Below are positions 1-47,912 of a stretch of DNA of 60,346 nucleotides, piece after piece; within the stretch, counting starts at the first letter, position 1, and the number at the start of each line of letters is the position of its first letter. The stretch is from positions 1 through 60,346 of the forward strand of contig JAFGJT010000009.1 of assembly GCA_016928915.1 (NCBI GenBank), given 5' to 3'. This DNA comes from Candidatus Peregrinibacteria bacterium. Its GTDB lineage: Bacteria; Patescibacteriota; Gracilibacteria; UBA1369; PNNO01. A program made the translations under genes and the position numbers. The notes below the pieces were generated by a model. It did no database searches, was not told the origin of the DNA, and was given only the letters and a program-made list of their open reading frames with translations.

Positions 1-12
1 TAATTTTGCTTT

Positions 13-63
13 GGACATCGTGTTTTGGTTAAGTATATGCACTTTTATCTTAACACGGTGTCC
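13..63. other. Long imperfect inverted repeat (hairpin) near the window start
   Basis: The left arm starts GGACATCGTGTT and continues to TTAAG; the right arm is CTTAACACGGTGTCC. They pair with one mismatch and a ~5-nt bulge around a loop of about 15 nt. No T-run follows on the plus strand, so it is not a clear intrinsic terminator. It could be the 3' end structure of an unseen upstream gene or part of the leader of the pilus operon. Confidence 0.5.
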
Positions 64-102
64 TAAATGTCTGTGTACTATATATTATTCATGCTGTTTT
101 TA

Positions 103-40884: not shown

Positions 40885-41218
40885 AGTACGAAGCTCTTTA
40901 ACACCAATCCGGTTCGTATCGACATCTAAAATAAAGAAGATGCCAGAACCAAGCGGGTCAAAGAGCAAATGCATCAGGGTCGGCTAAGGGTCCTGATGCT
41001 GACCGCCTAACTGTTCTTTGGTGGAGGATTTATCGCGACGTAACCACCATCGTCTTTTTTTTTTGTTTTTATTTTGAAACCAAAAGGTTTGTTTTTGTTT
41101 CATTTGTTTTTGTGTTTTTGTAAAGATTCCGTCCATTCTCAAGATAAATGATGAGAAGGAGGACGCTTTAGTCGGCAGTAGCCGGCTGCCATCGAAAAGT
41201 AAGGAGGGAAGCCTTTGG

Positions 41219-41249
41219 CACAATTGACATTTGATGTGTGACTTTTGAC
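41219..41249. repeat. AT-rich intergenic repeat (TTGACATTTG units)
   Basis: CAATTGACATTTGATGTGTG followed by ACTTTTGACA resembles the repeat units at 13356 and 26908. It lies inside the candidate RNA, in a segment that also pairs CCTTTG with CAAAGG. Confidence 0.35.
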
Positions 41250-41319
41250 AAAGGTTTACCTCTCGGCTTTTTGTTTTTGTCTTTATTTCAATGAGCTCAT
41301 TTGTTTTTGCAATCTAGAT

Positions 41320-41373: not shown

Positions 41374-41961
41374 ATGATGAAAAAATTAAAAGGAAAATTA
41401 TTTCTGATCGTAGGCCCTTCAGGTGTGGGAAAGGGGACCGTAATTGCGCTTCTAAAAGAGCGGCATCCCGAATTTGATTACCCCATATCCGCAACCACAA
41501 GAGAACCCAGACTGGGCGAAAAGGACGGAGTGGTTTATCACTTTGTAACCAAGAAAAAGTTTGAACAAATGATAAAAAAAGAAGATCTGCTTGAATACGC
41601 AATCGTACACAACAAGGAATATTACGGAACTATAAAGGAGCCTATAATTAAAGCCCTTGAAAAAGGAAAAACCGTAATAAGAGAAGTTGATATGCAGGGC
41701 TGCGAATCAATTTTAAAGGTTTTTCCGAAAGAAAACTTAGTATCAATTTTTCTTACTGTCCCAAATAAACAGGATTTAATTGACCGCATATTAAAACGCG
41801 GTAAACTACCCGAAGAAGAGATAAAACGCCGTATGCAGAGCGCTGAAAAAGAATTTGCCAAAGGAGGCAAAATATGCGATTATCAGGTTCCGAGTTTGAC
41901 GGGAAAAGTTGCCCAATGCGTGAACGAAGTTGAAAGAATAATCCAAAAAGAAACAGAGTAA
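41374..41961 (+). CDS. gmk: Guanylate kinase
   Basis: 195 aa from the ATG at 41374. P-loop GPSGVGKGTV (residues about 14-23), the GMP-binding motif ATTREPRLGEKDGVVYHFV, and EYAIVHNKEYYGT are all conserved. It makes GDP from GMP. The stop codon is immediately followed by the truncated tRNA-Gln at 41962. Confidence 0.96.
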   Translation: MMKKLKGKLFLIVGPSGVGKGTVIALLKERHPEFDYPISATTREPRLGEKDGVVYHFVTKKKFEQMIKKEDLLEYAIVHNKEYYGTIKEPIIKALEKGKTVIREVDMQGCESILKVFPKENLVSIFLTVPNKQDLIDRILKRGKLPEEEIKRRMQSAEKEFAKGGKICDYQVPSLTGKVAQCVNEVERIIQKETE

Positions 41962-42018
41962 TGGGGTGTAGCCAAGCGGTAAGGCACCCCGCACTGGCGG
42001 GGCACGCGGGGGTTCGAA
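41962..42018 (+). pseudogene. Truncated tRNA-Gln-like fragment
   Basis: It begins TGGGGTGTAGCCAAGCGGTA like tRNA-Gln, continues through a stem CCCCG / CGGGG with loop CACTGG, and stops in the T-arm at GGGGGTTCGAA. The T-stem 3' strand and the 3' acceptor (CACCCCA expected) are missing. U33 is replaced by A. This looks like a decayed duplicate of the intact gene 23 bp downstream. Confidence 0.6.
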
Positions 42019-42040: not shown

Positions 42041-42114
42041 TGGGGATTAGCCAAGTGGTAAGGCAGCGGGTTCTGGTCCCGCCATCGGGGGTTCGAATCC
42101 CTCATCCCCAGCCA
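42041..42114 (+). tRNA. tRNA-Gln (anticodon CTG)
   Basis: Acceptor TGGGGAT pairs with ATCCCCA, D-arm GCCAAGTGGTAAGGC, anticodon stem GCGGG/CCCGC with loop TTCTGGT (CTG), T-arm GGGGGTTCGAATCCCTC. The discriminator is G, CCA is encoded. It is intact and followed by the left end of the glycan cassette 86 bp away. Confidence 0.95.
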
Positions 42115-42159
42115 TTCAGAAAACCGCGATTTTGTGGCCGAAATTATTAAGATTTTTTT

Positions 42160-42200
42160 AGGAGGCAGGTCGTTTTTTGCCTTGGCGCCTCATAGAGTTG
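42160..42200. other. Structured outer flank of the left inverted repeat
   Basis: AGGCA and TGCCT pair around a short loop. The stretch ending AGAGTTGT has a diverged inverted counterpart outside the right repeat (TTTTTGCCTT ... GAATTGT in reverse), so the inverted homology extends weakly beyond the 67-bp core. Confidence 0.35.
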
Positions 42201-42267
42201 TATTTTTTACAAATTGACTCAAGGTATTCGATATCATAAACTGATTCTGTTAGGTTAAGAGCGTATT
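42201..42267 (+). repeat. Left ~67-bp inverted repeat with inward promoter
   Basis: Nearly identical, in reverse orientation, to 47013-47080: two substitutions and one T-run indel in about 67 positions. It contains TTGACT (42214-42219), 17 bp, TAAACT (42237-42242), a promoter pointing into the cassette. The outer edge begins TATTTTTTAC. No clear target duplication is visible outside. Confidence 0.85.
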
Positions 42268-42333
42268 GTTAAAATCGAAAAAGCTTTAAATGTAAGGCTT
42301 GATTGATTTAATTAAAGAATAATTTTGCTTTTC

Positions 42334-42714
42334 ATGAAATTGCTCAAAGAAATCACGAAATTTCTTATTACAGGAGGAACAAGCGCCGTAATTACATTGG
42401 TAATATTAAATATTTTTTTATTTTTTAATTATCCTTTGTTTATATCTTCAATAATCGGCTACGCGGGAGGGATTGTTAATAGTTTTTTTCTAAATAAAAA
42501 CTGGACATTTCGATTTAAAAACAATAACAAAAAATTCCCAAATATTTTTATAATATTCATGCTGTTTAACATTGCGATGATGTTTTTATTTGGCTATCTC
42601 AATCTTGGATTTCTTGCTGTAACCCAAAGTAAATTTATCAGTCAAATTTTGAGCATTTTGACTACAACCGTTATGAATTTTTTGACATATAAATATATAA
42701 TATTTAGGAAATGA
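42334..42714 (+). CDS. GtrA-like membrane protein
   Basis: 126 aa from ATG at 42334, four membrane helices. The motif NSFFLNKNWTFRF is the GtrA signature (N-x-W-T-F). GtrA proteins move lipid-linked sugars or assist decoration of surface glycans. First gene of the cassette, overlapping galE by 4 bp. Confidence 0.88.
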   Translation: MKLLKEITKFLITGGTSAVITLVILNIFLFFNYPLFISSIIGYAGGIVNSFFLNKNWTFRFKNNNKKFPNIFIIFMLFNIAMMFLFGYLNLGFLAVTQSKFISQILSILTTTVMNFLTYKYIIFRK

Positions 42715-43688
42715 ATAAAGAAATTTTAATAACAGGTGGAGCCGGATATATTGGAGCAAATATTGTTGATTTACTTATCAAAAAAAAATATAAAGTTGTG
42801 GTAATCGATAATTTATCAACCGGGAATAAAAGTTTAATTCATCCTGATGCGATTTTTTATAATGTTGATATTTCAGATAAGGCAAAATTGGAAGAAATTT
42901 TCAGAATGCATATAATTGACACCGTAATACATCTTGCAGCTTTAAGTTCGGTCGGGGAATCGGCAAAAAAGCCAAAAAAATACTTTAAAAATAATGTAAA
43001 AGGCGGCTTGAATCTTTTGGAAGCAATGGTGGAAAATGAATGCAAAAAGATTATTTTTTCTTCATCTGCGGCCGTTTACGGAAATCCTCAATACGTTCCA
43101 ATCAATGAAGATCATCCAATAAATCCCATCTCAATTTACGGAGAAACAAAAGCGACATTTGAAGAAAAATTAAAACTGTTTGATAAACAACATGATCTTA
43201 AATTTCTTTCATTAAGGTATTTTAATGCCGGCGGCAGTTCGGATGATAACCGATTCGGAGAAATACATATTCCGGAAACTCATTTAATTCCATCAATATT
43301 AAAATTGGCCGCAAAAAACAGAGAAATAAGTATATTTGGAGACGATTATGACACAAAAGACGGCACCTGTATCCGAGATTACATACATGTAGTTGATATA
43401 GCGGAAGCACATATTTTGGGAATAGAATATCTGGGGAATAATGCTCAATCGGAGATGATAAACTTAGGAACAGAAAAAGGTTATTCCGTTAAAGAAATTA
43501 TAAATTTGTGCAGTAAGACACTGGAAAAATCAGTAAAATCTAAAATAGAGCCAAGAAGGAAAGGCGACCCTCCAATTCTCATTGCAAGCTGTGGAAAAGC
43601 AAAAAAGCTACTTAATTGGGAACATAAAAAAACAATTCATCATATAATAGAAAGCGCTTGGAAATTTGAACAAAAATTGTCTATTTAA
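42711..43688 (+). CDS. galE: UDP-glucose 4-epimerase-like NAD-dependent sugar epimerase
   Basis: 325 aa, extended SDR. NAD motif TGGAGYIGANIVD at the N-terminus, catalytic Ser region FSSSAAVYG, and Y-x3-K in ISIYGETKATFEE. The C-terminal KGDPPILIASCGKAKKLLNW is typical of GalE. Gives UDP-galactose or a related sugar for the surface glycan made by the neighbours. Confidence 0.92.
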   Translation: MNKEILITGGAGYIGANIVDLLIKKKYKVVVIDNLSTGNKSLIHPDAIFYNVDISDKAKLEEIFRMHIIDTVIHLAALSSVGESAKKPKKYFKNNVKGGLNLLEAMVENECKKIIFSSSAAVYGNPQYVPINEDHPINPISIYGETKATFEEKLKLFDKQHDLKFLSLRYFNAGGSSDDNRFGEIHIPETHLIPSILKLAAKNREISIFGDDYDTKDGTCIRDYIHVVDIAEAHILGIEYLGNNAQSEMINLGTEKGYSVKEIINLCSKTLEKSVKSKIEPRRKGDPPILIASCGKAKKLLNWEHKKTIHHIIESAWKFEQKLSI

Positions 43689-43698
43689 CCAAAATGAA

Positions 43699-44829
43699 AT
43701 GGAACTTTCAATTATAATACCGTGCCTGAATGAAGAAAAAACTTTGCCCATAGTTATAAAGAAAAGTAAAAATTCCATACGGAAATTGGGAATAGAAGGC
43801 GAGGTAATTATTGCCGACAACGGATCTGTGGACAGTAGTGTTGAAATCGCAAAGGAAATGGGTGTAAAGGTTGTACATGTGTCAAAAAAAGGCTACGGCA
43901 ACGCCTTAATAGGCGGGATGGCGGAGGCGCAAGGGGAATTTTTGTTGATGGGTGATGCTGATGATTCTTATAATTTTGAAGAAATTGACGATTTTTTAAA
44001 ATATATAAAAAACGGGTATGACCTGGTTATAGGTACGAGACTAAAAGGGAAAATTGAGCCCGGAGCAATGCCGTTTCTCCACAGATATCTGGGAACGCCG
44101 ATTTTAACATTTATTTTAAATCTTCTGTTTAAATTAAAAATTTCAGATTGCAACTCCGGTATGCGATGTCTTACCAAAAAATCTTTTAATGAAATGAAAC
44201 TTTGTTCTTCAGGAATGGAATTTGCTTCCGAGATGCTAATAAAAGCGGGCCTTCTAAAATTAAAAATCAAAGAAATCCCAATAACTCTATATAAAGATAA
44301 ACGCGATAAAGCCCCGCACTTAAACACATGGAGAGATGGGTGGAGACATTTGAAATTCATGTTTCTATACAGCCCGACGTACTTGTTTCTAATTCCGGGA
44401 ATAATATTAACCATCCTTGGTATTGGCATAATGATTGTTCTGGTTGGGGGACCAATCAAAATTCTGAATACCATATTCGATTATCATTCGGCATTACTGG
44501 GAAGTCTTCTTTGTATTTTAGGTTATCAAACATTAAATACCGGTATACAAGCAAAGGCTTATGCTCAAAATCAGGAGTTTAAATTTGACGACAAATTTAT
44601 AAAAAAATTTTACAAAACATTCTCTCTTGAAAAAGGTATCATTTTTGGGCTCATTTTATTTACGATAGGCTTTACGGTTGATCTGTTTGTTCTTTTGGAA
44701 TGGAGCCGGGCCGGTTATAAAGATTTGAATGAGGCAAGTACTGTTGCTCTATCTTCAACATTGATTATTTTGGGAGTTCAAACAGTTTTTTCTTCATTTT
44801 TCTTAAGCATACTGGAGCGGAAAAATTAA
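43699..44829 (+). CDS. Dolichyl-phosphate mannose synthase-type family 2 glycosyltransferase
   Basis: 376 aa from ATG at 43699, 10 bp after galE. GT2 motifs MELSIIIPCLNEE, IADNGSVDSS and GDADDSYNF (DxD metal site) lie in the first 110 residues. Four C-terminal helices from about residue 230 anchor it. It likely forms a polyprenyl-phosphate sugar donor. Converges with the 701-aa gene (4-bp overlap). Confidence 0.9.
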   Translation: MELSIIIPCLNEEKTLPIVIKKSKNSIRKLGIEGEVIIADNGSVDSSVEIAKEMGVKVVHVSKKGYGNALIGGMAEAQGEFLLMGDADDSYNFEEIDDFLKYIKNGYDLVIGTRLKGKIEPGAMPFLHRYLGTPILTFILNLLFKLKISDCNSGMRCLTKKSFNEMKLCSSGMEFASEMLIKAGLLKLKIKEIPITLYKDKRDKAPHLNTWRDGWRHLKFMFLYSPTYLFLIPGIILTILGIGIMIVLVGGPIKILNTIFDYHSALLGSLLCILGYQTLNTGIQAKAYAQNQEFKFDDKFIKKFYKTFSLEKGIIFGLILFTIGFTVDLFVLLEWSRAGYKDLNEASTVALSSTLIILGVQTVFSSFFLSILERKN

Positions 44830-46931
44830 TTAACGCTGTAAAGACTGATAGAATCCGTCTTAAGAAGAAGAGTAAACATATTTGTATCATTTTTTGCCCA
44901 CTCTTCTTCGTATGGAACCAGGCCGTCAAAACTTTTAAAATCAACGATTAAATATTTAACATCGAGGGTCTTTAAAGCCGATTTCCATTGAATTTCATTG
45001 GGATTGGCGCGAACAGATTTGTCTTCATTCCTGTAATAAAAATATTGACAATCAAGACATCCATCAATATTAACGTAGAGTGGCGCGTATCCCTCCTTTT
45101 CAAAAAGCCAATAGGGGGTAAGACCGCTAAGTGCTATTTTCTCTGTTTCCCGGTTTTGTAAATCTCTTAATTTATTAATATGGGGCAAAATTGAAGAATA
45201 AATATCTATTTTTTTTGATAAATAAACATCATCGAATTCGGTATGTTTTGTGAAATGAGGAGACACTTGAAACTGGTGTATTGAAATCAACAACGAAATA
45301 ACAAGTAATGCAAACAATACCATTAAATTATTTCGCCTTTTGAGGCGTGTTAAAAAACCGAATAAGGTGATAACCAAAATAATAATAAAAATTGACAATA
45401 AAATATGGATATCCGAAATCAATGCTATCTTATGGTGAATAAGTTGAAGGGACTCGGGATTGAACAGAAAAGATTTGAATAAAATATTGTAGATTAACAA
45501 CCCCGACGCAAAATAGAATAAAGCGATATAGATTATGCGGGAATAAAAAGCTGATAGTATTAAAAACACCGGTATTAAAGCAAATATGGGACTGGAATAT
45601 CTAATTGTCTGATTCCAAAGGGTGTATGTATAAGGTGAATTCAGGTAATAAAATATTTCTGCAAGAAACACATACAACAATAAAACAAAGGTTGTTATAA
45701 CCCACTTGCGATGAATATAAATGTTTTTGTCTTTAATTCTATTCAAGACAATAAAAATTAAAGCCCCTGCTACGGCCAGTATCGCAACAGGAAAGAACAG
45801 TAACGATACTTTGCCTAACTGAATTTCAAAATCACCATTATTTAAAATATTTGAAATAGCATTTAAAATGCCATCTTTTGTAATGTGACTCCACAAAGAA
45901 GTTCCTACTGTATCTTCAATAAAAATTTTATGTCCCTCAAAATTAATAAAACCAAGATCAATACCAAATGGATATATGGGATTAAATGCGATTATCCAAT
46001 TTCTGATATACCAAAAAATTCCAGGTAAAAATATCAATGAAGGATACCAAAAAATGAATTTTAATGACTTATATTGATAAAAAAACGCAAAAATCAGGAA
46101 TGGAACAAGCACAATGATCTGTGGCACTGCATTGTATTTTGTTCCCAACATTACACCCAAAACCAGGCACGCTTTGAATAAATCAATCTTTTCTTTGTTT
46201 ACTACGGAAGAAACAATTAATGCGACCGCACTTCCGAATAACGAAAACATAAATAAATCAATTTGCAGATTTAAAAATTGATTAAATAAAAATGGCACAG
46301 AAGCGGAACTTAGTGCAATTATAAAAATAAACAGTTTAGATACTCTCTTGCGCCCAAGATCAAGGAGTGATGAACACAGCAGTAAAAAAGATAAAAAAGT
46401 AACAATATATCCAAAATCCATATTTCCCGTTTGAACAGCAAAAAAAGCTTGTATTGATTCATGGTTTGCCGGAAAGAAAGTATTAGGTCCTACAAAGCCT
46501 GCGTGAAAAACCTCCCAAATACTGCCGGTGGAGATTAGTTTGCTGACTATGGGTAGATGGTATGCAATGCTGTCAATTTCGGCAATTGGCAGAAAATTCG
46601 CACAGAGAATGACAATACATGTGAAAACCAAAAACATGAACAATGTAGGTGTTATTTTGATAGCTTGAAGAAAATCTCCCAAATCATTTTTTTTGAATTT
46701 TTTAAAATTTCGAAACTCAAAAATTGAAATTAGCAGTAAATTTATTAATGCCAGGATTAAAAGATTAAGCGATGAGAAAATTTTAAATACCCCCAACAGT
46801 TCAACTGATAACAAAATTGAAACGAAAAATAGTATTAGCCACAAAGAAATATACCTCTCTTTATTTATTTTTATGGCTAAATAATAGGAGACTGCCAAAT
46901 ATGAAAAAAGGGTAAAACCAAACGCAAGCAT
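44826..46931 (-). CDS. Multi-spanning GT-C type glycosyltransferase-like membrane protein
   Basis: 701 aa with about 12-14 membrane helices in residues 1-560 and a C-terminal extracytoplasmic part of ~140 residues. The first loop has EIDSIAYHLPIVSKL, an acidic-Tyr-His pattern seen in GT-C enzymes (ArnT/PMT-like) using polyprenyl-phosphate sugars. Cys residues DGCLDCQYFYYR lie in the C-terminal domain. It would add sugar to lipid or protein. Transcribed from the right repeat. Confidence 0.7.
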   Translation of the reverse strand: MLAFGFTLFSYLAVSYYLAIKINKERYISLWLILFFVSILLSVELLGVFKIFSSLNLLILALINLLLISIFEFRNFKKFKKNDLGDFLQAIKITPTLFMFLVFTCIVILCANFLPIAEIDSIAYHLPIVSKLISTGSIWEVFHAGFVGPNTFFPANHESIQAFFAVQTGNMDFGYIVTFLSFLLLCSSLLDLGRKRVSKLFIFIIALSSASVPFLFNQFLNLQIDLFMFSLFGSAVALIVSSVVNKEKIDLFKACLVLGVMLGTKYNAVPQIIVLVPFLIFAFFYQYKSLKFIFWYPSLIFLPGIFWYIRNWIIAFNPIYPFGIDLGFINFEGHKIFIEDTVGTSLWSHITKDGILNAISNILNNGDFEIQLGKVSLLFFPVAILAVAGALIFIVLNRIKDKNIYIHRKWVITTFVLLLYVFLAEIFYYLNSPYTYTLWNQTIRYSSPIFALIPVFLILSAFYSRIIYIALFYFASGLLIYNILFKSFLFNPESLQLIHHKIALISDIHILLSIFIIILVITLFGFLTRLKRRNNLMVLFALLVISLLISIHQFQVSPHFTKHTEFDDVYLSKKIDIYSSILPHINKLRDLQNRETEKIALSGLTPYWLFEKEGYAPLYVNIDGCLDCQYFYYRNEDKSVRANPNEIQWKSALKTLDVKYLIVDFKSFDGLVPYEEEWAKNDTNMFTLLLKTDSISLYSVN

Positions 46932-47243
46932 AACTTAGTTAATAACAAATTTATATATTTTTTTTGACATCAGCCGGACAGTTTTGTGAAATTTTACCGC
47001 TACTATTTCAGTAATACGCTCTTAGCCTAACAGAATCAGTTTATGATATCGAACACCTTGAGTCAATTTGTAAAAAAATACTTTTATCTACTCTTAAAAA
47101 GACAATTCTTTAAGGCGGGAAGGCAAAAAGTAGTGGGTCTGGAGAGGGATTTCTGCCTTCTCGACTTTCTTTTATTTATATTTTTCTTTAAAATAAGTAC
47201 GAACTTCGTTATAGAAGGACAGCTGAATCATAAAAATAAGTCC
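46932..47243. other. Intergenic region between cassette and next gene
   Basis: This 312-bp gap contains the right inverted repeat and a weak extension outwards (AGGCAAAAAG ... TGCCTTC hairpin around 47120-47160). I see no other gene; an open frame starting at 47043 reads through the repeat and is not convincing. Confidence 0.5.
47013..47080 (-). repeat. Right ~68-bp inverted repeat with inward promoter
   Basis: Reverse complement of the left repeat, ending in AAAAAAATA at the outer edge. It contains minus-strand TTGACT (47066-47061) and TAAACT (47043-47038), 17 bp apart, pointing into the 701-aa gene. So both ends of the cassette carry the same inward promoter and leader. Confidence 0.85.
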
Positions 47244-47612
47244 ATGCAGCACGATGACAAACCAATTAGAGAGATTGATGATACCGCCGGTTCCGCAGCG
47301 GAAGATCGTTTTGAAGAGATTATTAAGAGAGTAAAAGCAGCGAATGCCGAAATTATTAAGGATGAAAGCAGTCCTTTATATATTGATCTTGGCATGGAAG
47401 AAGTTGAGATCGGCGAACAGCGGATAGTTGAGTTTAATTTAAACGGTATGGATTTCCAGATTATACGCGACAAAAAGATGGCCCGGATTGTTGGTGAAGG
47501 CCGCAAAAAAAGTCTGGAGCAGCTTTCAAGGCCGATGATCGATATTAAATTAAAACGCAAACCTGAAACATCGGATCAGTGGGTGTTTATGGATCTGGAC
47601 GGGATGTTTTAA
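47244..47612 (+). CDS. Small soluble hypothetical protein
   Basis: 122 aa from ATG at 47244. Acidic, helical N-terminus (AAEDRFEEIIKRVKAAN), then DLGMEEVEIGEQRIVEFNLNGMDFQIIRDKKMARI. No known domain. A terminator follows at 47613. The upstream region is taken by the right inverted repeat, so its promoter is unclear. Confidence 0.6.
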   Translation: MQHDDKPIREIDDTAGSAAEDRFEEIIKRVKAANAEIIKDESSPLYIDLGMEEVEIGEQRIVEFNLNGMDFQIIRDKKMARIVGEGRKKSLEQLSRPMIDIKLKRKPETSDQWVFMDLDGMF

Positions 47613-47660: not shown

Positions 47661-47912
47661 TTATTGCCCTTCAGCCGGAGGGGTTGGCTCTGTTGGAACC
47701 TGAGGTTCAGTTGGAGCAGGTTCAGCCGGAGGTGTTGGTTCGGGTTGTGCAGGTTCAGCCGGAGGGGTTGGCTCTGTTGGAACCTGAGGTTCAGCCGGAG
47801 GAGTTGGCTCGGGTTGAGCTGGTTCAGTTGGAGCTGGAGTTGGTGTCGGTTCGGTCGGTACTGCCGGATTTACTGGATCCCCTTGGTCTCCTGACAAATT
47901 GTAGTCTGTCAT
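47661..47912 (-). CDS. Pro/Glu/Thr-rich tandem repeat protein
   Basis: 83 aa. After MTDYNLSGDQGDPVNPA it consists of repeats of PTEPTPPAEPAQPEPTP type with an imperfect ~15-25-residue period; the DNA is repetitive too. No signal peptide. The antisense frame is also open as a repeat by-product. Likely a disordered linker-like protein; expression uncertain. Confidence 0.5.
   Translation of the reverse strand: MTDYNLSGDQGDPVNPAVPTEPTPTPAPTEPAQPEPTPPAEPQVPTEPTPPAEPAQPEPTPPAEPAPTEPQVPTEPTPPAEGQ

Follow-up and report, generated by a model that had tools for sequence, protein, structure and literature searches.

A putative GtrABC-type glycan-synthesis module between mirror-image promoter-like repeats at a tRNA-Gln hot spot of a Candidatus Peregrinibacteria bacterium

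Positions 1 to 60,346 of contig JAFGJT010000009.1 from a Candidatus Peregrinibacteria bacterium (assembly GCA_016928915.1) were analysed; this stretch of 60,346 nt is called the window, and the coordinates of the module are positions within it. The source is a draft assembly of one genome of its genus. On the 3' side of a tRNA-Gln(CTG) gene the window carries a module of four genes enclosed by two inverted repeat arms (Table 1). The left half of the module is read rightwards and encodes, in this order, GtrA, GalE and a GT2 glycosyltransferase, the right half is read leftwards and encodes a GT-C membrane glycosyltransferase, and the stop codons of the converging GT2 and GT-C genes overlap at 44826-44829.

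A first-pass annotation made from the sequence alone had described a glycan-synthesis cassette with GtrA, a GalE-like epimerase, a GT2 and a convergent GT-C-like protein, and the gene content was borne out by Pfam and NCBIfam matches together with structure prediction; the label of a glycan module is supported. Among NCBIfam families the GT2 most closely resembled AglJ (2.7e-42) and polyprenyl-phosphate sugar synthases, none of which passed the cut-off. For the GT-C protein of 701 aa no Pfam match above the cut-off was obtained (PMT_2 at 0.0033 remained below), and its profile gave no match against the PDB sequences. Its AlphaFold model, built with 13 homologues, reached a predicted TM-score of 0.81; an earlier model from 7 sequences had been unusable (predicted local distance difference test score of 46). 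The closest structures in PDB were those of ArnT (5f15/5ezm; Foldseek E-value 1.5e-4, TM-score 0.56 on the target), a GT-C-fold transferase that works with undecaprenyl-phosphate sugar. The acidic pair E118/D120 is invariant and a C-terminal CxxC motif (C625/C628) is nearly invariant, and a contig scan of genomes with the GT-C protein recovered no relative. Judged by homology, the four genes together would form a GtrABC-type sugar-decorating system plus a galactose supply.

The arms were detected by repeat search as an inverted pair of 73 nt (42203-42275 and 47005-47077) with 68 of 73 positions identical (93% complementary) and a spacing of 4729 nt. Local alignment placed two mismatches, both transitions, in the first 65 positions and three in the last 8, and a single T indel at the outer end accounts for the difference in arm length; the inverted repeats of about 67 bp with two mismatches and one indel that had been noted at first pass are thus real. 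The longest exact complementarity between the arms is 36 nt, the runner-up exact inverted repeat of the window being 17 nt long. When one arm was compared with the whole genome by BLAST, the other arm was found at E=6.8e-26 and no further significant match appeared. In a self-comparison of the 1,127,696 assembled bases the arms were the sole close inverted pair of their kind, the only other near inverted pair lying on contig C1, 2.4 kb apart and inside tRNA genes. Outwards, the resemblance extends to 42174-42201 versus 47102-47129 (22 of 28 positions identical; 1 of 1000 shuffles as good), with an indel of about 23 nt between core and outer part of the right arm, and the core is more conserved (97%) than the outer part (79%; P=0.01). 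No match to the arm was found in 58 relatives or among the 353 genomes of the class, where the repeat occurs once, and the search for the same repeats around different cargo in relatives, which the first-pass annotation had proposed, returned none. The exact arm core was likewise without match in the contigs of 85,000 GTDB species and in IMG/VR, both of which may omit the source genome. That the two leaders have an RNA structure in common was considered and rejected, as their folds differ and neither is strong.

Each arm carries the promoter-like box pair TTGACT-17-TAAACT facing inwards, as first reported, so that the same box stands ahead of both module halves; the rest of the genome does not contain the exact pair. 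Of 104 sites of the type TTGACN-16..18-TANANT in this 92%-coding genome, 72 lie between genes, versus 12/63 and 5/38 with two control patterns, and such sites plausibly represent a promoter class of this genome. The arm boxes are predicted to act as promoters.

The site of the module was compared with the corresponding sites in the family. In relative G003 it is empty, consisting of gmk, a short spacer, tRNA-Gln, 18 bp and then the conserved open reading frame (ORF) that in the window lies to the right of the module. Between tRNA-Gln and this ORF a gene for an MFS transporter is found in G001 and a 3-methyladenine glycosylase-like gene in G005, whose contig breaks at the tRNA end, while restriction/helix-turn-helix-type genes lie 3' of tRNA-Gln in G004 (all three named by reading the translations); the contigs of G002 and G006 stop at tRNA-Gln or within about 130 bp of it. 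Since G003 is empty and relatives hold different cargo, the family has a hot spot on the 3' side of tRNA-Gln(CTG). Moreover, the GT-C gene is missing from the six other genomes of the family, and the G+C content of the module is 32.3% versus 38.2%, within the lowest 1.8% of windows. These observations support the view of the module as acquired cargo, including the empty-site allele that had been suggested as a check, and they do not agree with a content fixed in all relatives. Of the tRNA-Gln genes said to adjoin the module, a single one is intact, the copy upstream of it being degenerate.

Table 1. Features of the module and of its insertion site in the window.
Feature	Position	Strand	Basis
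gtrA-like gene, small membrane protein (putative flippase for lipid-linked sugar)	42334..42714	+	Pfam GtrA_DPMS_TM (PF04138) 4.6e-16, above cut-off
galE, UDP-glucose 4-epimerase	42711..43688	+	TIGR01179 above cut-off, 381 bits
GT2 with C-terminal membrane part; AglJ / polyprenyl-phosphate hexose synthase type, putative GtrB analogue	43702..44829	+	PF00535 1.6e-26
GT-C membrane glycosyltransferase, putative GtrC analogue, convergent	44826..46931	-	AlphaFold model, ArnT-like fold
Left repeat arm: outer part 42174-42201 and high-identity core 42203-42269	42174..42275	+	Repeat search, alignment
Right repeat arm: core 47011-47077, indel of about 23 nt, outer part 47102-47129	47005..47129	-	Repeat search, alignment
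Promoter-like TTGACT-17-TAAACT, facing gtrA	42214..42242	+	Sequence scan; box class mostly intergenic in genome
Promoter-like TTGACT-17-TAAACT, facing GT-C gene	47038..47066	-	Sequence scan
Intact tRNA-Gln (CTG), hot spot on its 3' side	42041..42114	+	ARAGORN, Rfam; 3' cargo of relatives nil or different
Degenerate tRNA-Gln copy without 3' end	41963..42018	+	73-75% identical to two intact tRNA-Gln genes; uncalled by ARAGORN
Post-tRNA stretch common to the G004 hot spot, reaching the edge of the repeat core	42125..42213	+	Alignment score 60, 0/1000 shuffles as good
gmk (guanylate kinase), conserved left neighbour of the site	41377..41961	+	Pfam Guanylate_kin 4.9e-36; syntenic with tRNA-Gln in G001-G006
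Conserved 123-aa ORF, right neighbour of the site	47241..47612	+	72% identical in G001, 71% in G003

No direct repeat of the tRNA 3' end was found at the far end of the module in the window, and neither of the possible boundaries shows a convincing target duplication. The 15-bp direct match 42137-42151 / 47346-47360 was discarded, one copy lying inside the neighbouring ORF and the match being probably due to chance. No integrase is encoded within the island, the PF00589 matches of the genome being only those at C1:38152 and C15:903. A phage origin was rejected, as the GT2 and the arm core had no match in IMG/VR. The idea that the post-tRNA stretch is a dispersed family repeat was likewise dropped, as its matches elsewhere are mostly chance and only that in G004, at the same site, is significant; a resemblance of the G006 flank failed the shuffle test.

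Related modules were found outside the family. Homologues of the GT-C protein (19-38% identical) are present in 15 of the 353 class genomes, the source genome counted, and in four of the 15 the GT-C gene starts directly 3' of a tRNA gene on the same strand, namely tRNA-Pro(GGG) in G053, tRNA-Pro(TGG) in G080, tRNA-Met in G023 and tRNA-Pro(CGG) in G217. The same is true of 2.6% of ordinary ORFs of the source genome (P=5e-4), with a background drawn from this one genome and a 700-bp limit set after the cases had been seen. In G053, G080 and G023 the genes for GT-C, GtrA and GT2 follow each other in that order and are co-oriented, and several of the related modules are single operons located behind a tRNA, GtrA and GT2 sharing one reading frame in G080 and G023. 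A direct repeat of 27 bp without mismatch, whose first copy starts within the final five bases of the tRNA, encloses the G053 module, which makes mobility of GtrABC-like modules at tRNA genes in general likely; no such bracketing repeat was found at the window, G080, G023 or G217.

Degenerate or truncated 5' copies of the respective tRNA were observed just upstream of its intact gene at three of five modules (in the window; L103, 8223-8281; L128, upstream of 6852). Such fragments, present at the window, G080 and G217, adjoin 0-1 of the 41 remaining tRNAs in the source genome (P 0.0007-0.0025), and those of G080 and G217 are both cut in the D-loop. Additionally, in G217 the tRNA-Pro-linked GT-C, UbiA-like, GtrA and HAD-like genes are followed downstream by a protein (L128, 1597-2496) whose translation, read by eye, resembles transposases associated with repetitive extragenic palindromic (REP) elements.

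The explanation favoured here, and held to be somewhat better than evenly probable, is that a GtrABC-type module was acquired horizontally at the tRNA-Gln(CTG) 3' hot spot and that an inverted duplicate of its promoter/leader co-expresses the detached GT-C gene. GalE would supply UDP-galactose, the GT2 would load the hexose onto polyprenyl phosphate, GtrA would flip the lipid-linked hexose, and the GT-C protein would attach the hexose, on the outer side of the membrane, to a glycan or glycoprotein of the surface; this pathway is predicted from the gene families. The GT-C gene would have been turned round from the co-oriented order of the relatives so as to come to lie tail-to-tail with the GT2 gene, and an inverted copy of the promoter/leader region of roughly 70-100 bp would put both transcription units under the same promoter. 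The tRNA-side arm would be the original and the right arm the inverted copy, arising when the GT-C gene was turned, because 42125-42213 matches the tRNA flank of G004 and the right arm is without a significant match. The arms would serve co-expression rather than inversion.

Several points weigh against this explanation. No relative with an intermediate arrangement that shows the origin of the inverted arm was found, the tRNA statistic has the restricted background and limit given above, and with neither a bracketing direct repeat like that of G053 nor a target duplication the window module does not capture the act of insertion. Furthermore, the enzyme roles are assigned by homology, and the boxes correspond to the sigma-70 consensus at 9 of 12 positions.

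One further reading, considered unlikely, is that small GtrABC-like modules are a class of integrative cassettes without a recombinase that move among the tRNA genes of Patescibacteria, here that for Gln and in relatives those for three Pro isoacceptors and for Met. Attachment would take place at the tRNA end, degenerate copies of the tRNA would remain after the event, and mobilisation would be in trans, the mirror arms of the window being a by-product or a working part of this mobility. Slightly less credit is given to the possibility that two promoter-plus-gene cassettes with a common leader entered the hot spot successively and in opposite orientations, the arms being their heads. The varied cargo of the hot spot, the complete promoter-gene unit in each half and the abrupt tail-to-tail join with overlapping stop codons would fit two such arrivals, but no third cassette with the same head was found in any search, and since GT-C, GtrA and GT2 travel together in the relatives, both halves probably arrived as one.

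Just as doubtful is the proposal of a cargo-carrying element without transposase, similar to a miniature inverted-repeat transposable element, that jumped to its place beside tRNA-Gln, is moved in trans and has the arms as its terminal inverted repeats. Long imperfect inverted repeats do flank a foreign AT-rich cargo, and the G003 site is empty. However, the signs expected of a transposon were not found, neither a transposase or further copies of its ends nor a convincing target duplication: the ends have no second copy in the genome, the class genomes or, for the exact core, the larger collections searched, and the sole direct match is the one discarded above. In addition, identity declines outwards without a sharp end, and the match to the tRNA flank of G004 runs across the left boundary. 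Mobility of the module by means of its repeats is not supported.

Least probable by a clear margin is a flipping of the segment, by homologous recombination or an Xer-type recombinase, as a surface-glycan phase switch, which the 73-bp inverted arms around surface-glycan genes, the presence of two Xer-type recombinases in the genome and a core better conserved than the outer part, as expected from gene conversion between arms, would suggest, but which is disfavoured by the boxes lying within the arms and both facing inwards, so that inversion would leave each operon with the same promoter and expression unaltered, by the failure to find a serine invertase in the genome or a recombinase near the module (both Xer-type recombinases being encoded on other contigs), by the failure of a dif-like core (best match in the arm 12/22) in a genome-wide scan, and by the fact that no relative has the opposite orientation. 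The invertible module envisaged at first pass is therefore not upheld. In invertible polysaccharide promoters of the Bacteroides type the promoter sits between the repeats and flips. Inverted repeats and promoters adjoin surface-glycan genes here as well, whereas the promoter of the module is present in both arms and a flip would be neutral.

Another known system close to the module is found in phages of Salmonella and Shigella (P22, SfI, SfV), whose gtrABC serotype-conversion operons consist of a GtrA flippase, a GtrB-type GT2 and a variable GT-C transferase. These operons are gained by horizontal transfer and sit where a tRNA serves for attachment (thrW in Shigella; PMC3688519, PMC3636060). 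The module resembles them in its GtrA/GtrB/GtrC logic, its predicted decoration of the surface with sugar, its acquisition and its position at a tRNA gene. It differs from them in that it has no phage genes, int/xis or demonstrated att core, that it includes galE, and that its GT-C gene lies on the opposite strand with its own promoter copy instead of a co-orientation of all three genes. Moreover, its host is a bacterium of the candidate phyla radiation that probably lacks an O-antigen. An att arrangement of the Shigella type could not be demonstrated in the window. Flexible genomic islands associated with tRNA genes ("additive islands" marked by tRNA 3'-end repeats; tycheposons) offer a further comparison (PMC10872708). 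Common to both are variable cargo 3' of a tRNA in a streamlined genome and, in G053, a direct repeat that starts in the tRNA 3' end; in contrast to these islands the module has few genes, mirror-image promoter arms and no linked recombinase.

Some further observations were made around the insertion site and at other tRNA genes. The intergenic region 41010-41290 upstream of gmk is about 69-78% conserved in five genomes of the family and contains a long hairpin at 41194-41272, which matches no Rfam family at threshold and may be an unannotated structured RNA. Between the insertion site and typA, an ORF rich in Pro, Glu and Thr and composed of 84-bp tandem DNA repeats (47661-47912, minus strand) is without a family match. 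The first positions of the window (1-87) overlap exactly over about 86 bp with the ends of contigs C6, C8, C9, C10 and C16, and other sets of contig ends show the same pattern; the draft is therefore broken at repeated elements. About half of the 42 tRNA genes of G000, for example at L171 (C1:84471) and L208 (C13:115070), are directly trailed by tandem GC-rich hairpins, CCCCGC..GCGGGG followed by GCGGCCCCTGCATTTTAAAGGGCCGC (sometimes repeated), which have no clear U-tract and may represent a tRNA-associated family of REP-like elements or terminators.

The source organism is a small bacterium and probably a symbiont. Genome size, gene content and the occurrence of genomes that recode TGA in the class point to a placement in the Patescibacteria. 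Members of this group are regarded as living on hosts to which they attach, and the sugars on their surface probably influence this attachment as well as the sensitivity to phages. For the turnover of surface genes in their tiny genomes the locus provides an insertion site that is well delimited and has one empty allele beside several alleles with cargo. GtrABC-like modules are recurrently linked to tRNA genes without a linked integrase, and the mirror promoter would be an unusual way of co-expressing a split operon.

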